Of a stretch of DNA of 64,000 bases, positions 9,425 to 23,861 are shown piece by piece. The position numbers and the translations under genes are program-made. The notes beneath the pieces were generated by a model. The model was not told the origin of the DNA and ran no database searches. It saw nothing but the letters and a program-made list of their open reading frames with translations. Positions within the stretch are counted from its first letter, which is position 1. The number at the start of each line of letters is the position of its first letter. Origin of the DNA: Candidatus Accumulibacter regalis (GTDB taxonomy: Bacteria > Pseudomonadota > Gammaproteobacteria > Burkholderiales > Rhodocyclaceae); NCBI GenBank assembly GCA_000585075.1, contig JEMY01000013.1, forward strand, positions 1-64,000. The letters run 5' to 3'.

Positions 9425-9937
9425 ATGATAAAGAAGACCTTGCTCGGCCTGATGGCCATGGCCGGACTACTTGCTTCCGCAGCCGTTCAGGCGACCATCA
9501 TTCCCTGGTCGGCCGCACTCAATGGGGCGCAGGAAGTCCCGGCCTCCGGCTCCCTTGGCACGGGATCTGCGTTCGGCACTATTGATGACGCGTCCGGTGC
9601 TCTCGCCTGGAACATCACGTTCAGTGGCCTGTCCGGCCCCTTGACCGGCATTCACTTCCACGGCCCGGCCGCCCCTGGGGTGAATGCCGGTGTGCGGGTG
9701 AATATTGGCAACATCAGTGGTTTCCTGAGCCCGAACAGCGGGTCAGCTATCATCACTGCCCAGGAGGTCACGGATCTTCTGGCAGGAAGCTGGTACATCA
9801 ATCTGCATACGGCGCAGCATCCCGGCGGTGAAATTCGCGGCCAGGTCATCCCGGAGGCCGTTCCCGAACCGGCCATGCTCGGCCTGCTTGGCCTCGCTCT
9901 CGCGGGTCTTGCAGCGTCGCGTCGCCGCAAGCTGTAA
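9425..9937 (+). CDS. CHRD domain protein with PEP-CTERM sorting signal
   Basis: 170 residues. A signal peptide (1-23, cleaved after AVQA) is followed by a CHRD domain (about 27-140) with the characteristic GIHFHGPAAPGVNAG, INLHTAQHPGGEIRGQ blocks. The C-terminus VPEPAMLGLLGLALAGLAA plus RRRKL is a textbook PEP-CTERM signal: the exosortase recognition motif, a membrane helix and a basic tail. The protein should be exported, processed by exosortase (gene not in this window) and placed on the surface or in the extracellular matrix. A sigma-54 site lies just upstream and a terminator just downstream, so it looks monocistronic. Confidence 0.93.
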   Translation: MIKKTLLGLMAMAGLLASAAVQATIIPWSAALNGAQEVPASGSLGTGSAFGTIDDASGALAWNITFSGLSGPLTGIHFHGPAAPGVNAGVRVNIGNISGFLSPNSGSAIITAQEVTDLLAGSWYINLHTAQHPGGEIRGQVIPEAVPEPAMLGLLGLALAGLAASRRRKL

Positions 9938-13592: not shown

Positions 13593-16500
13593 CTACGCGA
13601 ACAGCCAACCCGGATCGCTGACCGGCGCTTCCGCCACAGCGGCGCCATCATTTGCCGCCACGCTGAAGTAGATGTCGGTCATGTCGACCACATTGCCGTT
13701 GGCCAGGGTGGCCGAACTCTGCTCGAGATGCAGGTTGCCATTGACGTCCCAGAAAGCGTCTTCGTGATACGCCACGTTGACACTGACGACGCCTGCGTCG
13801 GCCAGACTGATCAACTCGCCAGGGTCGGTTTGATGGTTGCCGTTGGCGTCCCGCCACACCGACAGATTGACGTAGCCGTCGTCCGCGGCATCGACCAGAC
13901 CATCGCCGTTGCTGTCGAAAGCCGCCAGCCGTGCGAAGCCATCGCCCTGCTTGCTCCCGCCGAACAGCTCGGAAATGTCGTCGATGCGGCCGTTGCCGTC
14001 GGCGTCGAAGGCCAGGAAGGCATCACCCGCCGACAACCAGCCGGACTTGACCGCGCTACCGTTTCCGAACAGATCGAACTGACCCTGCGCATCAGCCAGC
14101 GAGGTGGTCTGGATACCGTTGCCGTCGAGGTCGATGGCAATCGGGGTCACCGTCTTCGACGCCGCACTGACGACCAGCTTCTCGATCTTGAAGTAGTCGG
14201 GTGTGTTGTCCCCGACGCTGCCTCTGGTGCTATCCGGGAGTCTGGCGGCCACCACCAAGACATTACCCTCGGCTTGTGCGCTGTTGATATCGGCCCAGCG
14301 CGCAGATGTCGAACTGGTGTCGTTGACTTCTTTGGTCAACCCGGCAAGGGGGTTGGACAAATTGACTGGCCCATCCAACGAACCAATCCACGCCGTGAGG
14401 TCGCTGTCGCCGATGACGTAGCCCAGGAAGGCCTTATCTACCACCACTTTCTCGGAGAACTCGTAGATCACGTAGTTGATACGGCCCACGTTGTCGACCG
14501 TGTGCGTGTTGCTGCTGCGCCCGTCGCCTTCGCTGCGATCGGTGACGCCATGCCCACCACTGTAGGCGCCTAGCCAGGCAGTTTCCCAGTTAGTGGGTTG
14601 GCCGTCCCTGTCGAAAGAGCTGCTGCTGACTGCACGGGCGTTGACCGTGATGCCGTCGACAGTGTAGCTCCGCACGTTGCCATTGCTGCCGTCAGTGGCC
14701 GAGTTGCCACTGAAGTCGTAGGTTACGTTTACCCGCGGCGGCGTCAGGCCGGCATCCCAGCCGTTGTTTTCGCCTGCGACCAGTGTGATCAGCCCGGTCT
14801 TGCCGGAACTGCCGACGTCTGAATCCAGCGCGTCGTTGCCGCCCTCGTTGGCCACCGTAAAGCCGCCAAAAGCCGTGGGTTTGACGAACTGCAACTCGTA
14901 CTTGCCGAGAACCAGGTTAGTGAAGCTGTAGTTGCCGCGGCCATCGGTGGTGGTGTCTTGGAGAAATGTACCCGCACTGTTGAACAGCTTCACCGTCACT
15001 CCTGCCACACCCGCTTCACCAGTATCCTGCAAGCCGTTACCGTTGGTGTCGCACCAGACCCGGTCGCCGATGCTGGCCAGTGCCGGATTCTTGTAGTGGC
15101 TGAGGTCGAAGTCTCCCGGCGCACCTGGAGCCGAGACGGTGGCCTTGTTCTCATAGACCCCGCCGGCCGTCGGCTGCTGGAAGGTCAACTTCTCGATCTT
15201 GAATCGATCCTCCGGTGTGCTGTCGCCCGTCCAGGCAGCAAGCACCAGCACGTTGCCGGCGAGGTTGCCGGCATTGATGTCGGCTGTCCGCGCCGAAGTC
15301 AAATCCGTCAAGTTGACTTCGGTGAAACCGAGTCCGTTGAGCACCGCGTCGCTGAGCGTCAGGTGGCTGTTGAAGGCGTTACTGCTGGTGCCAATCCACA
15401 CCGTGATGTCGCTGTCGTTGACCACGTAACCCAGGTACGCCGAGTCGACGATTACGCTCTGGTTGAACTCGAAGAGCACGTAGTTGTCCCGGCCGACATT
15501 GTCGACGGTGTGCATGTTGCTGCCACCGCTTCCCTCGCTGCTGTCGGTGACGCCCAGCCCACCGCCGTAGCTTCCCAGCCACGCGGTCGACCATTCACCA
15601 CTGGCCTTGTCTCTGGCGAAGGCGCTGGCCTTGACCGATACCGCTCCGCTGCTGAACTCGCGGATATTGCCATCCGGGCCGTCCAGCGCGCTATTGCCGC
15701 TGAAGTCAAAGGTCCGGGGGGCGCCGAGTGCCGTCAGATTCTGGACGATGCCCGAGGCCTTATACAGCCACACTTCACCCGGTGACAGGAGACTGTCGTT
15801 TCCGACGTCACCCGACAGGTAGGTGATCTTGCCGTTGGCTACCGACAGGTCGTCAGCCGTGTTCGCCGGCGTACCGTTGTCATCGACAATCGCGATCTCG
15901 CTTTTTGCGAAGGTCGTGTTGCCGGTGTTGGTCACCTGGTAGGTCCAGTTGACCACCGAGCCGGGGGTCAGGAGCGGAACGCCCGCGCCATTAGCCGAAT
16001 CTTCGTTGTCGTAGTCCGGCGCAACCGGGTTGCTGTTGCTCGCACCGTTGGTGGTTTTCTCGATGTCGATTCCGGGCCTCAGGACCACCAGACCGGCATC
16101 CCAACTCAGGTCCTCCTTGCCGGCCGTCAGCATAGTGGAGATCGATTTACCGGTAAGTGGATCGATGTCGCTGTCTATTGCGTCGTCGCCACCCTGGTCC
16201 TTGGCAGTGATCGTGTAGCCCTGAGGCGCCAGCACATGAATGGCGTAGTTACCCGGAGCGAGATTGGTGAACAGGTAGTTGCCGTCCGCGTCCGTGTTCT
16301 GCGTCGCTTGCACATTGCCGGAACCATCCAGCAGTTCCACCGCAACACCGCCAATGCCGACCTCGCCGGAGTCCTGAACACCGTTGGCGTTATTGTCCAG
16401 CCACACGCGGTCACCGAGACTAGCAGTCAAAAGCGAGGTGGTGTAATACGCCTTGTCGGAATCAGAAACCGTTGCGCCGGTGCCCGCATATACGCCAACG

Positions 16501-19500
16501 ACCGTACCGGTGTTCTCATGCAGCCCGCTCCACGTCACCATTTCCGTGGCGGTGTAGGTCCAGGTCTCGTTGATGTCCAGCTTATGATCGCCGTTGATGT
16601 CGCCGCCGACGAAGGTCAGGCCTTGGATATGGTCGTCCGTCACCTGCACGTCGCTCAGTGCGACCTCGCCGGTATTGGTCACCACATAGGTGAACACCGC
16701 CTTGCCACCCACGGGTATCAAGGGTCCTGTGGGATCGTCCGCGTCGTAGTCGGGCGTGATCACCAACGTGCCAGCGCCGGCCGGAGTGCTGAGGTCGGCA
16801 CCCAGTTCGTTCTGCGTTGCAAACAGGTCCTTGGTGCTTTCATAGGTGCTGCTGTTGACCGCGGCCTTGGTCATAGCGATGACCTCGGCCTTGCTATAAG
16901 CGTAATCGACATAGCCATTGGCTGCATTCAGCAATGCAGCCGTGGAGTGGCGCATAAGGGCGTAGACCCCACCACCGTTCATGTTCAGAGCGTCCAACAG
17001 TGTTGGCGTACCGGGTACGTCGACGCCAAAGATGGCCTCGTAGCTGTCATTCGGGCTGTAGCCCGTTTCCGGCCAACCAGCCAGCGGTGCGGGTCCGTAG
17101 CTGGAGTGCGTTTTCCAGAAGCCAGGCGTCAGCCCCTCGCCGCCGCCGCCGCCGTCCACCATGTACTCACCGCGAACGTATTTCTCGATGTCGATACCCG
17201 GCGCCATTGCGACCAGGCCGGCATCCCACGACAGATCCACCTCGCCGGGGCTCAGCGAGGTCAGCGCGCTCTTGCCGGTTGTCGGATTGACGTCGGAGTC
17301 CGTAGCGTCGTGAGTGTTGTTACCGGCATCCTGCGTCGTGAAACGGTAACCGACGGGCTTGACCACCTCTATGGCGTAGTCGCCGGACGTCAGATTGCTG
17401 AACAGGTAGTTGCCATCGCTGTCGGTAAGCGTGCTGCCGATTTCACCACCGGTGCGATTCAGAAGTTTGACCGTCACTCCAGCGACACCCGCTTCGTTGT
17501 CGTCTTGGAGGCCATTGCCGTTACTATCCAGCCACACCCGGTCACCGATCGACGCTTTGCAGGGCGCCGCCGTGCAAATATCAAGTTTCTCGATCTTGAA
17601 CTGGTCCTCCGGCGTGCTATCGGAGATGTTGGCGGCAATGATCAGCACGTTGCCACTGACCTTGCCGTCGTTGAAGTCGGCCCAACGAGCATAGCGGCTT
17701 GTCGTCCAGTTTTCCTCGTAGTGGGTCATGCTGGCCAGGAACGCATCGTTCACGGTCGTGACCGGGGTCGCCGAAGAGCCAATCCACACCGAGATATCGC
17801 TGTCGCAGACGACATAGCCCAGGTAGGCATTGTCCACGATGACATCCTGCGAAAACTGGAATACCACGTAGTTGTCGCGTCCGCCAACGTTGTCGACCGT
17901 GTGGCTGTTGCCCGAGCCACTCTCGCTGGTATCCGTGACACCGAGACCGCCACCATAGGCACCCAGATAGGCGGCAGCCCACGTGTCCGTATTATTCTGC
18001 ACACGACTCCAGGCGGTTGCCGTCACCGAGACGCCCGACAACTCGTAGGTCCGCGAATTGCCATAGGCGCCCGAGGTGGACGAACTGCCGGAAAAATCGT
18101 ATCTGACGCATACCGGATCGCCGATCAGGCCGGCGTCGACCGTGAGGTTGTTCTCGCCGGCGCCCAGGATAATGGGAGCGGTTCGGCCCGTCGCATTCAC
18201 GTCGGAATCTTTGCCATCGCTTGTACTGGTATTGCCACCTGCGTCCTGCGCGGTGAAGGCGTAACCGACCGGCTTGTCCACCTGGATGGCGTAGCTGCCA
18301 GCTCCCAGGTTACTGAACAGGTAATTGCCACTGTTGTTGGTCGTCGCGGTCGCGACCTCCTGACCACCCTTCAACAGACGGACCGTCACCCCAGACACAC
18401 CGCCTTCACCCGCATCCTGAATACCATTGTTGTTGCAGTCCAGCCAAACGTGATCACCGATCGACCCAAGCCGCTCAACCGCCACCTTGTAGTCCTCGAC
18501 CTCGCCGTTCGAAGCGAGCCCAGTGGGCGCCAGTCCCGCGTCGGTGCTCAGGCGGAAGCGCGCGTATGTATCACCGACCACGGCGTCCGTCGGCGCCGTG
18601 AAACTTAGCGTCTGCATGCCATTGCTGACAGCGTAATCAGTAAAGACTTGCTCGCCCGCGCCGAAGGCGCCATCACCGTTGAAGTCGATCCACGCGTTCA
18701 GAAGCCCGTGGACCCCATCGGCTTCGACCACCGTCACCTTGACCTGCGTAGTCTGGCCGGCCTGGATCGGCGTCAGAAACTGGATACCGTCCTCGTCGTT
18801 CAGGTTGTTCGAGTTGTCGCCGTCGGCGTCCAGGGTCGGCTGACCATCGCTTTCGGTATCCACCAGTGCTCCGAGGTAAAGCGCCGGCGTCGCCGCCGTT
18901 TGCCCCACGCTCAGCACGTGCCGCGCACCATTCGCGGCAAAGGTCGTGCCGTAGCTGTCCGGGTTGTCGCCGTAGTCCAGCGCCCGATAGCCGAAGTCCT
19001 GCAGGAGATTAACCTCGCCCGGTGTCAGCGTTTCGGTGGACATACTGTCATTGCCGCCAATGCCGCCGTCTGGGTCAACAGTATTTGCCCAGCCCACTCC
19101 GACCTGTGGCAGGGTGCTGGTGTCGACCATTACCCGGTACACGATACCGGCGCCAGGACCACCCGTGGAGTTGTAGGTAGGGCCAGCCAACAGCGGGCCG
19201 AAGAAATAGTAACCCGTCTCCACGACGTCAAGGGTGTTAGGGTTGTCGCCGGTCATGGCGGTAGCCACGAACGTATCAACTGACCCATCACCATTCGTAT
19301 CAGCCCAAAGCGTGACCTTTACGTTATCGATCCCCTCCCCGGCGTCGGCTAAGCCGTTATCGTTCTTATCGAAGAAAACCGTGTCGCCGATTCCTGCCGT
19401 CTTGACCTCAATGATCGTCGGCTGATGACTGGGGACCTCGCCGCCCGGCGAGAGGATCACGCCAATATCCTGGCCAGCAACAGGGACGAACTCGCTACCC

Positions 19501-20096
19501 ATCGTTCTGGCAAGGAGCGCTATTTTCTCGGCCGTGGCTCCCGACGTGTCGTAGTCTATCAGTGCATTCATGACACTTGGGCTTGCTGTTACGCCAAGCA
19601 ATTTCCATATAGCCCACTGCACATCACCCGAGGTGAAGATCTCATCCCCCGACACATCGTCAATATTGTAGTGATAGGAATTAGTGGAAGGACCAAATGG
19701 AGTTGGTGTGGATTCCAGTACCACGTTGTCCGGCTCGGTAATGTTATTGAATATCCAGTTGATAGCTTGAAGGGTGTCGAGGTACCCGTCCATGTTGACA
19801 TCGTTAACTAACGCTGGCGAAAAAACAGTGCTTGGTATCGCGCCGTAACTCGAATACACAGAAACATCATTGTACGTCGTACCACGGGTGATTCCTTTTT
19901 CCGGATCGAGGCACCAGGCGTCATACTTCCCATTCAGCAAACCACCATTTGCGATATTCACGTTTAAATAGCTGGGCATGCCCCACACGGGATAGAGGTG
20001 AAAGCTATAGAAGCGATCACTCTGCCTCTCGACGCCTTCTTGGGCGCCGCTGGTCGGAAGTAGCGACTCGAACAACGAGAGTGGGCCGTTAGTCAT
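13593..20096 (-). CDS. Giant mosaic surface protein with SdrD-B repeats, a thioester-like N-terminus and a calcium-binding C-terminus
   Basis: 2167 residues with no N-terminal signal peptide. In order: residues 30-200 resemble a Cys-Gln thioester adhesin domain (Cys62 in DAWCLDPE, Gln160 in DVQWAIW); about 235 starts the first SdrD-B-like domain; about 410-535 is a GEVED domain; SdrD-B domains recur near 543, 851, 1226 and 1672 (S(I/L)GDxVWxDxNxNGxQDxGE); three ectodomain modules near 663-842, 1461-1640 and 1790-1980 carry VDNVGRDNYV and LGYV(V/I)xDSD; DUF11-like segments lie between. The C-terminal 185 residues have DLDGNGIQ, FDADGNGRIDD and FDSNGDGLVDA Ca-binding loops and end in GWLFA, as in type I-secreted proteins. 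GGAG sits seven bases before the ATG. An adhesin or matrix role is inferred. Confidence 0.85.
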   Translation of the reverse strand: MTNGPLSLFESLLPTSGAQEGVERQSDRFYSFHLYPVWGMPSYLNVNIANGGLLNGKYDAWCLDPEKGITRGTTYNDVSVYSSYGAIPSTVFSPALVNDVNMDGYLDTLQAINWIFNNITEPDNVVLESTPTPFGPSTNSYHYNIDDVSGDEIFTSGDVQWAIWKLLGVTASPSVMNALIDYDTSGATAEKIALLARTMGSEFVPVAGQDIGVILSPGGEVPSHQPTIIEVKTAGIGDTVFFDKNDNGLADAGEGIDNVKVTLWADTNGDGSVDTFVATAMTGDNPNTLDVVETGYYFFGPLLAGPTYNSTGGPGAGIVYRVMVDTSTLPQVGVGWANTVDPDGGIGGNDSMSTETLTPGEVNLLQDFGYRALDYGDNPDSYGTTFAANGARHVLSVGQTAATPALYLGALVDTESDGQPTLDADGDNSNNLNDEDGIQFLTPIQAGQTTQVKVTVVEADGVHGLLNAWIDFNGDGAFGAGEQVFTDYAVSNGMQTLSFTAPTDAVVGDTYARFRLSTDAGLAPTGLASNGEVEDYKVAVERLGSIGDHVWLDCNNNGIQDAGEGGVSGVTVRLLKGGQEVATATTNNSGNYLFSNLGAGSYAIQVDKPVGYAFTAQDAGGNTSTSDGKDSDVNATGRTAPIILGAGENNLTVDAGLIGDPVCVRYDFSGSSSTSGAYGNSRTYELSGVSVTATAWSRVQNNTDTWAAAYLGAYGGGLGVTDTSESGSGNSHTVDNVGGRDNYVVFQFSQDVIVDNAYLGYVVCDSDISVWIGSSATPVTTVNDAFLASMTHYEENWTTSRYARWADFNDGKVSGNVLIIAANISDSTPEDQFKIEKLDICTAAPCKASIGDRVWLDSNGNGLQDDNEAGVAGVTVKLLNRTGGEIGSTLTDSDGNYLFSNLTSGDYAIEVVKPVGYRFTTQDAGNNTHDATDSDVNPTTGKSALTSLSPGEVDLSWDAGLVAMAPGIDIEKYVRGEYMVDGGGGGEGLTPGFWKTHSSYGPAPLAGWPETGYSPNDSYEAIFGVDVPGTPTLLDALNMNGGGVYALMRHSTAALLNAANGYVDYAYSKAEVIAMTKAAVNSSTYESTKDLFATQNELGADLSTPAGAGTLVITPDYDADDPTGPLIPVGGKAVFTYVVTNTGEVALSDVQVTDDHIQGLTFVGGDINGDHKLDINETWTYTATEMVTWSGLHENTGTVVGVYAGTGATVSDSDKAYYTTSLLTASLGDRVWLDNNANGVQDSGEVGIGGVAVELLDGSGNVQATQNTDADGNYLFTNLAPGNYAIHVLAPQGYTITAKDQGGDDAIDSDIDPLTGKSISTMLTAGKEDLSWDAGLVVLRPGIDIEKTTNGASNSNPVAPDYDNEDSANGAGVPLLTPGSVVNWTYQVTNTGNTTFAKSEIAIVDDNGTPANTADDLSVANGKITYLSGDVGNDSLLSPGEVWLYKASGIVQNLTALGAPRTFDFSGNSALDGPDGNIREFSSGAVSVKASAFARDKASGEWSTAWLGSYGGGLGVTDSSEGSGGSNMHTVDNVGRDNYVLFEFNQSVIVDSAYLGYVVNDSDITVWIGTSSNAFNSHLTLSDAVLNGLGFTEVNLTDLTSARTADINAGNLAGNVLVLAAWTGDSTPEDRFKIEKLTFQQPTAGGVYENKATVSAPGAPGDFDLSHYKNPALASIGDRVWCDTNGNGLQDTGEAGVAGVTVKLFNSAGTFLQDTTTDGRGNYSFTNLVLGKYELQFVKPTAFGGFTVANEGGNDALDSDVGSSGKTGLITLVAGENNGWDAGLTPPRVNVTYDFSGNSATDGSNGNVRSYTVDGITVNARAVSSSSFDRDGQPTNWETAWLGAYSGGHGVTDRSEGDGRSSNTHTVDNVGRINYVIYEFSEKVVVDKAFLGYVIGDSDLTAWIGSLDGPVNLSNPLAGLTKEVNDTSSTSARWADINSAQAEGNVLVVAARLPDSTRGSVGDNTPDYFKIEKLVVSAASKTVTPIAIDLDGNGIQTTSLADAQGQFDLFGNGSAVKSGWLSAGDAFLAFDADGNGRIDDISELFGGSKQGDGFARLAAFDSNGDGLVDAADDGYVNLSVWRDANGNHQTDPGELISLADAGVVSVNVAYHEDAFWDVNGNLHLEQSSATLANGNVVDMTDIYFSVAANDGAAVAEAPVSDPGWLFA

Positions 20097-21170: not shown

Positions 21171-21266
21171 GCGTGAACGCTTGGCAGTGAATACGAGCTC
21201 TGTACACACCCCACATGGCGCGCCACGCGCCCCTTTGTTTGGTACTTTTTCCGCGAGGAGCCAAGA

Positions 21267-21470
21267 ATGAAAGCACATCAAGAGCACCTTGATAAAACCA
21301 CCCCCGCCGCAAAAAACGCTGCAAGTGACCAGAACAAGATGAACCGTCGTGAGGCGCTGGCGATTGTCGGAAAGCACGCGGTCTACACGGCTCCTGCGGT
21401 GCTTGCAGTTCTGGCAGCAACAAAATCAAACCGTGTGCACGCCGGCGATGGGGATCCTAGCCCTAACTGA
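21267..21470 (+). CDS. Small peptide, probable RiPP-type substrate of the adjacent PqqD-kinase
   Basis: 67 residues starting six bases after a strong GAGGAG. Residues 1-25 are polar; 26-59 look like a Tat-type leader: NRREALA at 26-32, a hydrophobic run (Y40 to A51), and a VHA-G junction at 57-60 that could be a signal peptidase site. That would leave only the eight residues GDGDPSPN. The YTAP at 40-43 fits the YxxP motif by which lasso leaders bind their PqqD-like recognition element. Ser65 lies two residues from the C-terminus, near where lasso-peptide kinases phosphorylate. Position next to a PqqD-HprK fusion supports a substrate role; none of this is proven. Confidence 0.75.
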   Translation: MKAHQEHLDKTTPAAKNAASDQNKMNRREALAIVGKHAVYTAPAVLAVLAATKSNRVHAGDGDPSPN

Positions 21471-21502
21471 TTGCGCGTTCGCCGTCATCACAATCAGCAG
21501 CA

Positions 21503-22753
21503 ATGACGCGGACGAATAGAGGAGCGAACACGTCGATTGGGGCTGTCGGCCGAGGCCGACTTGGCAGGCTTATAAGTGTGACGGAAAAAATTGCGTCATA
21601 CCCGCAGGAGTCCTTCCTCTGTCCCTTAGGCTGCGCTTGGGTTGTCTACTACCCGCTGGCCGACAAGCTCCTGATTCTCAACGAGACTGCGAAGGTCGTC
21701 TGGGATCTACTGAGCCAAGGATGCGAGGCGCCTGAAATAACTTCAGCCTTAGCTGGCCATTTCGGGATTCCTGAGAAACAGGCTGCGCAGGACGTTGCGC
21801 AACTGCTTGCTGACCTGACCGACTGTCCCACCGGGTGCGATGGGGAAAAAACTGATGCGTGCGAAGCTTACTCGTTAAAGCCACAGGAATGCACCGTCAA
21901 TCGCAACGCATCGGTGGACTGCGGAACCTTCCGATTTGGCAAGAGCAAAATCAGAATCCTTTCTGTTACGAAGGAACTGGACGAATCATTTTTCTTGCGT
22001 TTTCAACATCGTGCTATCGATGACGACGGTGCGGACGTGCTCGAAATTTCGGCAGGGGACTCATCTTATAGGCTGACCTTTCGCAATAGAACTATCGCAC
22101 AAGCGACGACAATCACGCGGACGATGTCGCATTTGGTGGAATTCCTGCTGGCTCAAGAGCATCCACACAAGCCCTTGTTGGCGTATTGCCACGCGGCCGC
22201 AGTCAGCCACCGGGGGCGCGCCGTTCTGATGCCCGGTAATAGCGGCGTAGGAAAGTCAACCCTTACTGGCTTCTTGGTGGCGCACGACTTTTCCTATTTG
22301 GGCGACGATATGATCGCCATTGGTGAAGACGCGATGTCATTATTCCCGCTGCCCACCTGCTTGTCGATCAAGGCTGGTTCCTGGGCGCTCTTGGAGCCAT
22401 TCTATCCGGCGTTACCGAAGCTTGCGACGCTTAACCGCTATGGCCGCAGCGCTCGCTATATCGATCCACCGGGCAATTATGAAGTGCTATCTTCAGCCGC
22501 CGTCCCGGCAGCGATCGTGTTCCCCGCTTTTTCTGAGGGCGCAGCAACACGGCTGGCGCCATGGCAGCCACACCAGACAATGATTCGTCTCCTTGAGGCC
22601 AATGTCCGACTGTCTGGATGGGGCGCCGCTACCGAGGACCAACTCGCCAGATTCGTCCGCTTTGTCGAGCAGACACCGGCCTATGAGCTGAGTTATTCGG
22701 AACTACCTGAAGCCATGAAGGCCATCGAGGAATTGCTTGGCAGCCAACCCTAG
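21503..22753 (+). CDS. PqqD-like peptide-recognition domain fused to an HPr kinase-like domain
   Basis: 416 residues. About 36-107 is a PqqD/RRE-type winged-helix domain (PLADKLLILNETAKVVWDLL), the fold that binds leader peptides in many RiPP systems. A cysteine-rich linker follows (Cys108, 112, 120, 130, 140). Residues 225-410 form an HprK-like kinase domain with Walker A GNSGVGKST (245-253), preceded by His230 and followed by YLGDDMI (265-271). In paeninodin-type lasso clusters a separate HprK-like enzyme phosphorylates the peptide C-terminus. Here recognition and kinase are one chain. No clear site precedes the ATG at 21503; a GTG at 21581 is an alternative start. The distance to the peptide gene is 32 bases. 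Confidence 0.85.
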   Translation: MTRTNRGANTSIGAVGRGRLGRLISVTEKIASYPQESFLCPLGCAWVVYYPLADKLLILNETAKVVWDLLSQGCEAPEITSALAGHFGIPEKQAAQDVAQLLADLTDCPTGCDGEKTDACEAYSLKPQECTVNRNASVDCGTFRFGKSKIRILSVTKELDESFFLRFQHRAIDDDGADVLEISAGDSSYRLTFRNRTIAQATTITRTMSHLVEFLLAQEHPHKPLLAYCHAAAVSHRGRAVLMPGNSGVGKSTLTGFLVAHDFSYLGDDMIAIGEDAMSLFPLPTCLSIKAGSWALLEPFYPALPKLATLNRYGRSARYIDPPGNYEVLSSAAVPAAIVFPAFSEGAATRLAPWQPHQTMIRLLEANVRLSGWGAATEDQLARFVRFVEQTPAYELSYSELPEAMKAIEELLGSQP

Positions 22754-23861
22754 AGCGGCCTCGCGACTTCTCAGTCGCTGCCTGTCGGGAGCATTGGGGC
22801 AACCACTCGCCCGATCGGACCTGCCGGCCAACCAGAGCGAGTGGGAAAAGATGCTGCGCGCCTCCAGCGCTCATCTTGCCGCTCCACAACTGCGCTGGGC
22901 ACTGCGTGAACAAGGTCTTTTCCCGGCTTTGCCGGCCGATGTCGCCGAGTATCTTGATGCCATCTACACGCTGAATCTCGATCGAAACCTTGAATGCGAA
23001 AATCAGCTGGCGGATTTCATACAGCTGCTGAACAGCATTGGTGTGCGCCCAGTGCTTCTCAAGGGTGCAGCGGCACTCGTCGGCGGTCTCTATCCGACTT
23101 CCGGGGAGCGGATGATTTCCGATCTGGATATTCTGATTCCCGCTCAACGGCTGCCGGAGATCCTCGACAAGGTGGCGGGCGCGGGTTACCACGCGGGGGT
23201 AGCGGAAGGCATGCAGATGCCCGACCCGGTCGATTTTTCCGAGCACCATCACTATCAACCGCTTCTGAGCCCCAACTGGCCAGCTAGCGTGGAATTGCAT
23301 CTCCACCCAGTCCTCCTCGAATTTGGCGAGCTTCTTACGAGTGAAGAAGTTTTTCAGGATGCCCGTTTAGTTAAGTGGCGTGGCGGCGAGTGTTTGTTGC
23401 CTTCCCCGACCCACTTTGTTACCCACAACATCATCCATACTTTCCTCGTCAATACCAAGCATCACCTTCAACGACTCTCTCTTCGGCAACTGTTCGAGTT
23501 CGTTCTCGCCACCCGAACATACGGCGACCGCATCGACTGGAACGACATCCGCCACCGCTTTGACAGCCACGCTAACGGCAAGGCATTGCGGCAATACCTG
23601 GCATTGGCGAATACCTGCCTCGGTTTTAATGTGCCAAATAGCATAAATATGGACGGCCGCGACCGACCTCGCATCCAGCTCTACCTTTTCCACCTTGACT
23701 TGGAGAATCGCACCGCCCTGTGGACACTTAATCTCGCACGCCAGGTGCGCTCTCGGTTGCAAGCGCTGCGGAAAAGACCGGGAAAGACGGTAAGAAAGCT
23801 CTTTACGACCGGGGTTTACAGAAGGTTCATCGACAGCATCCTTGACACACCTGGCAAGTGA
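22737..23861 (+). CDS. NTP_transf_5-type nucleotidyltransferase
   Basis: 374 residues. The nucleotidyltransferase core shows LLKGAA (107-112) and SDLDIL with Asp129 and Asp131 as metal ligands, then ELHLHP (186-191). Family members accompany HprK-like kinases in lasso-peptide clusters; in pseudomycoidin biosynthesis such an enzyme adds sugars to the phosphorylated peptide end. The start is a TTG preceded by GAGG, overlapping the kinase gene by 17 bases, so translation is coupled. A role acting after the kinase on the 67-residue peptide is inferred. The C-terminal third is helical and basic. Confidence 0.85.
   Translation: MAANPRAASRLLSRCLSGALGQPLARSDLPANQSEWEKMLRASSAHLAAPQLRWALREQGLFPALPADVAEYLDAIYTLNLDRNLECENQLADFIQLLNSIGVRPVLLKGAAALVGGLYPTSGERMISDLDILIPAQRLPEILDKVAGAGYHAGVAEGMQMPDPVDFSEHHHYQPLLSPNWPASVELHLHPVLLEFGELLTSEEVFQDARLVKWRGGECLLPSPTHFVTHNIIHTFLVNTKHHLQRLSLRQLFEFVLATRTYGDRIDWNDIRHRFDSHANGKALRQYLALANTCLGFNVPNSINMDGRDRPRIQLYLFHLDLENRTALWTLNLARQVRSRLQALRKRPGKTVRKLFTTGVYRRFIDSILDTPGK

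Follow-up and report, generated by a model that had tools for sequence, protein, structure and literature searches.

A three-gene cassette of a small peptide, a PqqD-HprK-like kinase fusion and a nucleotidyltransferase-family enzyme in Candidatus Accumulibacter regalis, with a leader shaped like an export signal

The DNA considered here, which we call the window, is a 64,000-nucleotide stretch of contig JEMY01000013.1 (positions 1 to 64,000, forward strand) in the Candidatus Accumulibacter regalis assembly GCA_000585075.1, and our subject is a set of three genes in it that encode a small peptide, a fusion of a PqqD domain with an HprK-like kinase, and an enzyme of the NTP_transf_5 family. A first-pass annotation, made from the sequence alone, had described this set as a minimal peptide-modifying system, and the observation of a tight three-gene cassette is confirmed: the peptide and kinase genes are separated by 32 bp, the kinase and NTP_transf_5 genes by -17 bp, the latter overlapping from its TTG start as described, and the ribosome binding site noted for the peptide is present, as is the union of recognition domain and kinase in one protein. 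The features, all on the plus strand, are:

21217 to 21231, plus strand: terminator-like hairpin directly 5' of the peptide gene, near chance (6 such hairpins found against 4.2 expected)
21255 to 21260, plus strand: GAGGAG, ribosome binding site of the peptide, read from the sequence 5' of the peptide ATG
21267 to 21470, plus strand: precursor peptide gene, 67 amino acids, with a variable N-terminal part, the leader block NRREALAIVGKHAVYTAPAVLAVLAATKS, a rule-picked site after VHA and the tail GDGDPSPN
21503 to 22753, plus strand: fusion of PqqD, a putative recognition element (RRE) for ribosomally synthesized and post-translationally modified peptides (RiPPs), with an HprK-like kinase, 416 amino acids from ATG; an alternative GTG start at 21578 gives 391
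22737 to 23861, plus strand: NTP_transf_5 nucleotidyltransferase-family enzyme, 374 amino acids, TTG start, 17-bp overlap with the kinase gene

Because the kinase ATG at 21503 lacks a clear ribosome site and conservation over the first ~33 residues is poor in an alignment of five relatives, the true start of this gene may be the GTG at 21578.

The peptide is a real gene, more than a chance open reading frame (ORF), since it recurs in six copies whose leader block is nearly invariant despite heavy synonymous change. A profile of five copies found these six in five of 61 genomes searched, a draw that includes 28 members of the genus, and all lie within the genus. Across the 15 pairwise comparisons of the copies, the 27-codon leader block shows proportions of synonymous difference (pS) of 0.46-0.95 and of nonsynonymous difference (pN) of 0.017-0.109, and the 27-residue block, which starts RREALAIVGKHAVYTAPAVLAVL, varies at only a few positions in spite of the codon turnover. 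The window leader reads YTAPAVLAVLAATKS. All six copies carry the motif YTAPAVL, which has the YxxPx[V/L] form of the leaders of the LPP family described below, and after an [A/V]xA site they end in tails of 4-10 residues that vary freely in length and sequence and contain exactly one Ser each (GDGDPSPN, RVCPPDCSHT, DCPQGQICAS, VGSLN, QVGSDG and ETSF). The peptide matched no Pfam family, and its sole NCBIfam match was TIGR04117, at 13.6 against a cut-off of 50. Two of the six copies, both in genome G008, share their LysR and oxidoreductase flank and so may reflect a mixed assembly, in which two strains each contribute the one locus, and not a duplication. A separate order-wide search returned matches in two of 399 genomes, namely the window's own genome and one poor match with an internal stop, which was discarded. 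At the G022 locus (L036, 16775-17608 and 18990-19184) there is no nucleotidyltransferase gene and a glutamine cyclotransferase gene (PF05096, 2.1e-88) lies 3' of the kinase; the rule-picked core there begins with Gln (QVGSDG), a pairing that may be coincidence.

Both enzymes look active, judging from their aligned residues. In Pfam the kinase protein matches PqqD (PF05402, 1e-10, 42.2 bits against a cut-off of 23.4) over residues 46-107, and Hpr_kinase_C at 1.1e-4 and 22.2 bits, below its cut-off of 33.3, so that the kinase was assigned from the NCBIfam family TIGR04352 (HprK_rel_A, 2.5e-24, 85.8 bits against a cut-off of 200) together with its aligned residues. The third protein matches NTP_transf_5 at 1.2e-32; profile searches of the kind that the first-pass annotation had proposed thus recover PqqD and NTP_transf_5, and the HprK-related kinase below family cut-offs. 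According to the available text of PMC9266682, a His-Lys-Asp-Asp set is catalytic in lasso-peptide kinases. Among the 27 rows of our kinase alignment, one of them an HPr-rel-A kinase, H230, G248, G250, K251, D268 and K290 are invariant and position 269 is Asp in 13 and Glu in 14, while in all 24 rows of the nucleotidyltransferase alignment K109, G110, D129, D131 and H234 (K-G..D-x-D) are invariant; the key residues of both enzymes are intact in every row aligned. The partly masked record L032 entered the kinase alignment with X or cut before the mask, and its nucleotidyltransferase was excluded.

Compared with solved structures, the PqqD part finds its best matches, at weak E-values, in the lasso-peptide RREs TbiB1 (0.0061) and TfuB1 (0.076), which fits the leader-binding role earlier suggested for it; the nucleotidyltransferase profile matched nothing in the PDB. 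This nearness to lasso RREs, together with the YxxP leader, could be read as the trace of a degenerate or relict lasso-peptide system. We consider that very improbable, since catalytic residues kept intact across many lineages do not indicate decay, and the window's own genome (listed as 100% complete) contains no match to the lasso B2 protease family PF13471, a model that in a control matched two of 14 genomes. The absence of adjacent lasso B2 or C genes, which the first-pass annotation had pointed out, is borne out among the genes scanned, the cyclase not having been searched genome-wide.

The set recurs well outside the genus. Kinase profiles were searched against 369 genomes of the class, 8 of one order, 398 of the phylum and 147 of one family. 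In genomes G638, G627 and G509 a peptide, a fused kinase and a nucleotidyltransferase gene follow one another in that order on the same strand. From the matches listed we picked by hand a further 18 fused-kinase loci (L146-L156 from the phylum search, 11 in number, and L185-L191, seven, from the family search; G983, for example, was left out). A peptide profile made of the Accumulibacter copies and those of G638, G627 and G509 matched 13 of the 18 at E<=1e-4, with E-values relative to these small ORF sets, and one of the 13 (L153) is counted on two weak matches that have no clear core and no nucleotidyltransferase gene beside them. The nucleotidyltransferase profile matched 17 of the 18. Gene order varies in L150, L152, L156 and L190. 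The survey proposed at the outset, of small YxxP peptides near such enzymes, thus finds a YxxP or TxP peptide recurring with them across genomes.

Searching from the leader gives a similar picture. A 34-position leader profile of 15 rows, applied to 369 class genomes (apparently the same draw as for the kinase), matched five genomes at E<1e-9, the next best match being 1.9e-4; all five adjoin a PqqD-containing fusion, and four are themselves rows of the profile, and the fifth, G673, is not among its rows. On two Rhizobium plasmids found through the kinase, the leader matches are 1.3e-15 (R. gallicum IE4872) and 1.4e-14 (R. sullae WSM1592), and the order is peptide, nucleotidyltransferase, kinase. 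On plasmid pMt-1 of Methylobacterium tardum DSM 19566 a peptide ORF that is absent from the gene table (4703-4987 of L218) lies directly 5' of the gene for WP_238199978.1, with an NTP_transf_5 gene close by on the opposite strand; it matches the leader profile only at 0.0022 and the peptide profile at 9.8e-8. A kinase relative in Methylosinus C49 (36.9% identity) has no peptide or nucleotidyltransferase profile match within 11 kb; as annotated it has no Pfam match, and the frame from an earlier start matches the PqqD part of the profile.

Two loci of G673 carry other PqqD fusions. In one (L090, contig C114, 1717-4785) a 2-oxoglutarate (2OG)-Fe(II) oxygenase-PqqD fusion, whose C-terminal part is HprK-like only by eye and has lost the P-loop, adjoins a precursor whose core is rich in Pro and Thr, and in the other (L088, contig C120, 51-2656) a PF11397 N-acetylglucosamine (GlcNAc) transferase adjoins a fusion of a family 2 glycosyltransferase (GT2), PqqD and an HprK-like part. 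These loci possibly serve hydroxyproline glycosylation of a leader-guided peptide, and such fusions of PqqD with an oxygenase or a glycosyltransferase hint at a swappable platform.

That peptide and enzymes travel together bears on whether the peptide is the substrate at all. It could instead be a mere exported neighbour, the enzymes acting on a surface protein, such as the giant SdrD/XDP1-like protein of 2167 amino acids encoded nearby, or on a glycan. The giant gene does lie divergently upstream of the cassette in the window and at both G008 loci, and ~3.1 kb off on the same strand in G025, but peptide and enzymes are found together again in other lineages and on plasmids; moreover, G014, where the giant N-terminus has a 64% relative at a contig end, gave no peptide match, and that N-terminus matched four of 29 genomes in a draw without G022, G024 and G025. 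The evidence is mainly against a link between the cassette and the giant protein, a substrate of this kind seems improbable to us, and the peptide is very probably what the enzymes modify.

The leader also has a shape beyond that of a docking site. Its pattern is RRxFLxKxGKxAxxTPPA... followed by [A/V/S]xA, the outline of a twin-arginine (Tat) signal peptide with the RRE motif placed within the hydrophobic stretch. We compared 22 peptides, a set that leaves out L151, both peptides of L153, and L090, L218, L219 and L220, the last four having been found later. Arginine pairs are present in 20 and KR in two; the most hydrophobic 14-mer exceeds that of most of 500 shuffles in every peptide (p 0.000-0.054), and an [A/V/S]xA site can be picked in all 22 by a rule of our own that has no chance control and whose choices are doubtful for L148 and L149. 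A Ser falls among the first four residues past that site in 17 of the 22, which are not 17 independent cases because many of the peptides are close kin. The window peptide itself has NRREAL, a hydrophobic 14-mer that 0 of 500 shuffles equalled, and VHA by the site rule; its single core Ser is the sixth of eight residues, which places it among the five exceptions. The window's own genome encodes TatC.

The same features could, on the other hand, belong to a leader that only docks the RRE and resembles a Tat signal by coincidence, the enzymology being unchanged and the leader either staying on the peptide or being cut off by a cytoplasmic protease encoded elsewhere. Consistent with this, the two KR leaders depart from the arginine pair, and the hydrophobic stretch has prolines at its centre, where an RRE motif would require them. 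Curated Tat models also fail to recognise the leaders: of 14 peptides compared with NCBIfam only that of G638 touched TIGR01409, at 13.9 against a cut-off of 16.7, ten peptides gave no match in Pfam, and the window peptide matched neither TIGR01409 nor Pfam; because of this, we argue for an export signal from the shape of the leader and not from family membership. Coincidence is harder to reconcile with the arginine pairs, the hydrophobic stretches and the recurring site just described, and the G638 sequence SRRDFLKK is close to the Tat consensus. We regard a leader that serves docking alone as possible though rather unlikely, and lean slightly towards its being a working export signal.

Taken together, these observations make a minimal phosphopeptide (RiPP-like) cassette the explanation we favour. 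The PqqD/RRE domain of the fusion would grip the precursor leader at the YTAPAVL motif and bring the short core at the C-terminus to the HprK-like kinase of the same protein, where the core Ser would be phosphorylated; the NTP_transf_5 enzyme would then elaborate the phosphate with a nucleotidyl or sugar group. The leader would double as a twin-arginine-type (or Sec) signal peptide, so that release from the RRE would free the peptide to enter general export, with signal peptidase I cutting after [A/V]xA to leave a modified peptide of 4-10 residues outside the cytoplasm. Since the leader is itself proposed to be the signal peptide, a private peptidase and exporter, such as the LppS and LppD parts of LPP, would be dispensable. 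Earlier, the system had been described as lacking a protease; no peptidase is indeed found in the cassette, but the arginine pair and [A/V]xA site suggest that a general signal peptidase may serve. Phosphorylation had likewise been placed near the C-terminus, which fits the tiny Accumulibacter tails, although in 17 of the 22 peptides the first Ser comes 1-4 residues past the rule-picked site.

Phosphorylation of the core Ser seems probable to us; weighed against the rival explanations, a peptide that is the substrate and whose leader works as a signal is the reading we incline to, and we are tentative as to every step holding as written, since the binding, the phosphorylation site, the nucleotidyltransferase chemistry and the export route are inferred. 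Weighing against this reading, besides the exceptions and limits given with the leader counts and with L153 above, are the 848 bp with other ORFs between peptide and kinase in G509 and the five of the 18 loci that have no convincing peptide (a weak match on the opposite strand in L151, none in L154, L155, L188 and L191). The 19.7-kb stretch of G022 has no nucleotidyltransferase match, the short contig of G024 no kinase match, and structure models, with a mean predicted local distance difference test (pLDDT) of 39.4 for the kinase (three sequences) and 41.3 for the nucleotidyltransferase (two sequences), are too poor to use. For LPP, the available text also reports that deletion of lppN had no effect in the published assay (PMC13381572).

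A bolder form, which we think unlikely, would have a RiPP class with the RRE-binding motif inside a twin-arginine signal, the RRE-kinase acting as a Tat proofreading chaperone that hides the signal until the Ser is phosphorylated; at its boldest, kinase and nucleotidyltransferase together would yield a nucleoside diphosphate (NDP)-peptide for attachment to a surface glycan. Choline kinase and cytidylyltransferase activate phosphocholine in an analogous way. Among open-access PMC papers, our search brought up no RiPP that combines a Tat-type leader with an RRE.

Among the neighbouring genes, those scanned encode an SdrD-type protein, a response regulator-HD protein, a LysR protein and an oxidoreductase; neither they nor the cassette include an LppS-like peptidase or an MsbA-like exporter, genes farther away not all having been scanned. 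The cassette does not keep a fixed position within a shared series of neighbours (CRP-like, CZB, giant protein, LysR, oxidoreductase; recognised by eye in L035 and L036): its place differs among G000 (the window's own genome), G025 and G022, a pattern suggestive of local mobility. The giant protein (window 13593-20096) has five SdrD_B stretches and XDP1-like stretches (NF041927, 159.3 against a cut-off of 125), shares the C-terminus DPGW[LM]FA with L033, and has an N-terminal part reminiscent of thioester adhesin domains, with no model match. A CHRD-domain protein with a PEP-CTERM motif is encoded at 9425-9937. The named relatives of the window genome that we found are two A. appositus contigs. 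Searches gave no matches for the window in Rfam, for the three cassette proteins in PADLOC or for the kinase among phage records, and only matches at E>0.02, for the peptide, in PHROGs.

If the proposal is true, the pathway is unusually simple, its leader being both enzyme docking tag and export signal, and writing a docking motif into an export signal suggests a route for a pathway that has neither protease nor exporter of its own. Peptide, fused kinase and NTP_transf_5 genes lie together on sequenced plasmids of M. tardum and of the two Rhizobium species, which would let the joint role of the HprK-like kinase and NTP_transf_5 enzyme be tested in organisms easier to obtain than Accumulibacter.

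Several known systems share parts of this design. In the paeninodin and pseudomycoidin pathways (PadeK/PsmK and PsmN), as far as the available portion of PMC9266682 describes them, an HprK-like kinase with the His-Lys-Asp-Asp residues likewise acts on Ser with a nucleotidyltransferase partner, whereas the window genome has no B2-type protease match and no cyclase adjacent to the cassette, and a linear product is expected. Bufferins and oxazolins resemble the scheme proposed here in that the signal peptide of the precursor replaces the usual leader, and masking of it by a partner protein of the modifying enzyme has been suggested; they have Sec signal peptides, multinuclear non-haem iron-dependent oxidative (MNIO) enzymes and partner proteins, and no kinase or NTP transferase is described in the available text (PMC12452194).

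Another is HPr-rel-A (TIGR04352/TIGR04353), similar parts of which occur as separate genes in the window's own genome, on contig C17 (L034). That locus encodes an RR peptide, a PqqD protein (TIGR04353, 39.4 against 35) and a kinase (TIGR04352, 354.7 against 200), both above cut-off, and a fourth protein that has no NCBIfam match and aligns with the nucleotidyltransferase set, including K-G and D-x-D. The window set, by contrast, scores below both cut-offs (17.5 against 35 for its PqqD part in TIGR04353) and has PqqD fused, and its peptide has a tiny tail where that of L034 has a long mature part. Within the genus, no fewer than ten loci (L002, L015, L017, L019, L021, L024, L027, L028, L030 and L031) encode peptides of the HPr-rel-A type that share a leader resembling RR(R/K)LLKxAA..P.IF.LP. 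Their mature part, which contains ASCWNS, is conserved, in contrast to the tiny and variable tails of the window type.

The closest published system is the LPP family of Bacillota, in which, according to the available text of Popov et al. 2026 (PMC13381572), a discrete RRE binds a YxxPxVL leader (in full YxxPxVLxHQxIxFETxxS), an HprK-like kinase polyphosphorylates core Ser3, a signal-peptidase-like enzyme, LppS, cuts the leader, and an NTP transferase is also encoded. With this system the window set shares the YxxPxVL-type leader, RRE, HprK-like kinase, NTP transferase, variable C-terminus and lack of a cyclase. It is not itself an LPP, because its RRE and kinase are one protein, its cassette has no counterpart of the LPP cluster's LppS-like peptidase and MsbA-like exporter, and its host lies outside Bacillota; its leader, further, carries RR and the [A/V]xA site and not HQxIxFETxxS, and the Accumulibacter cores are only 4-10 residues long. 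The set probably works like LPP and HPr-rel-A and is filed as neither. The idea of a linear phosphopeptide, raised by the first-pass annotation, is thus supported by analogy, while its statement that no product had been assigned is overtaken by LPP, so that its interpretation as a whole is partly supported. With no more than three genes, the window set would extend this newly described phosphopeptide logic beyond Bacillota to another phylum; where the linear phosphopeptide is already in print, what we add is the signal-like leader.

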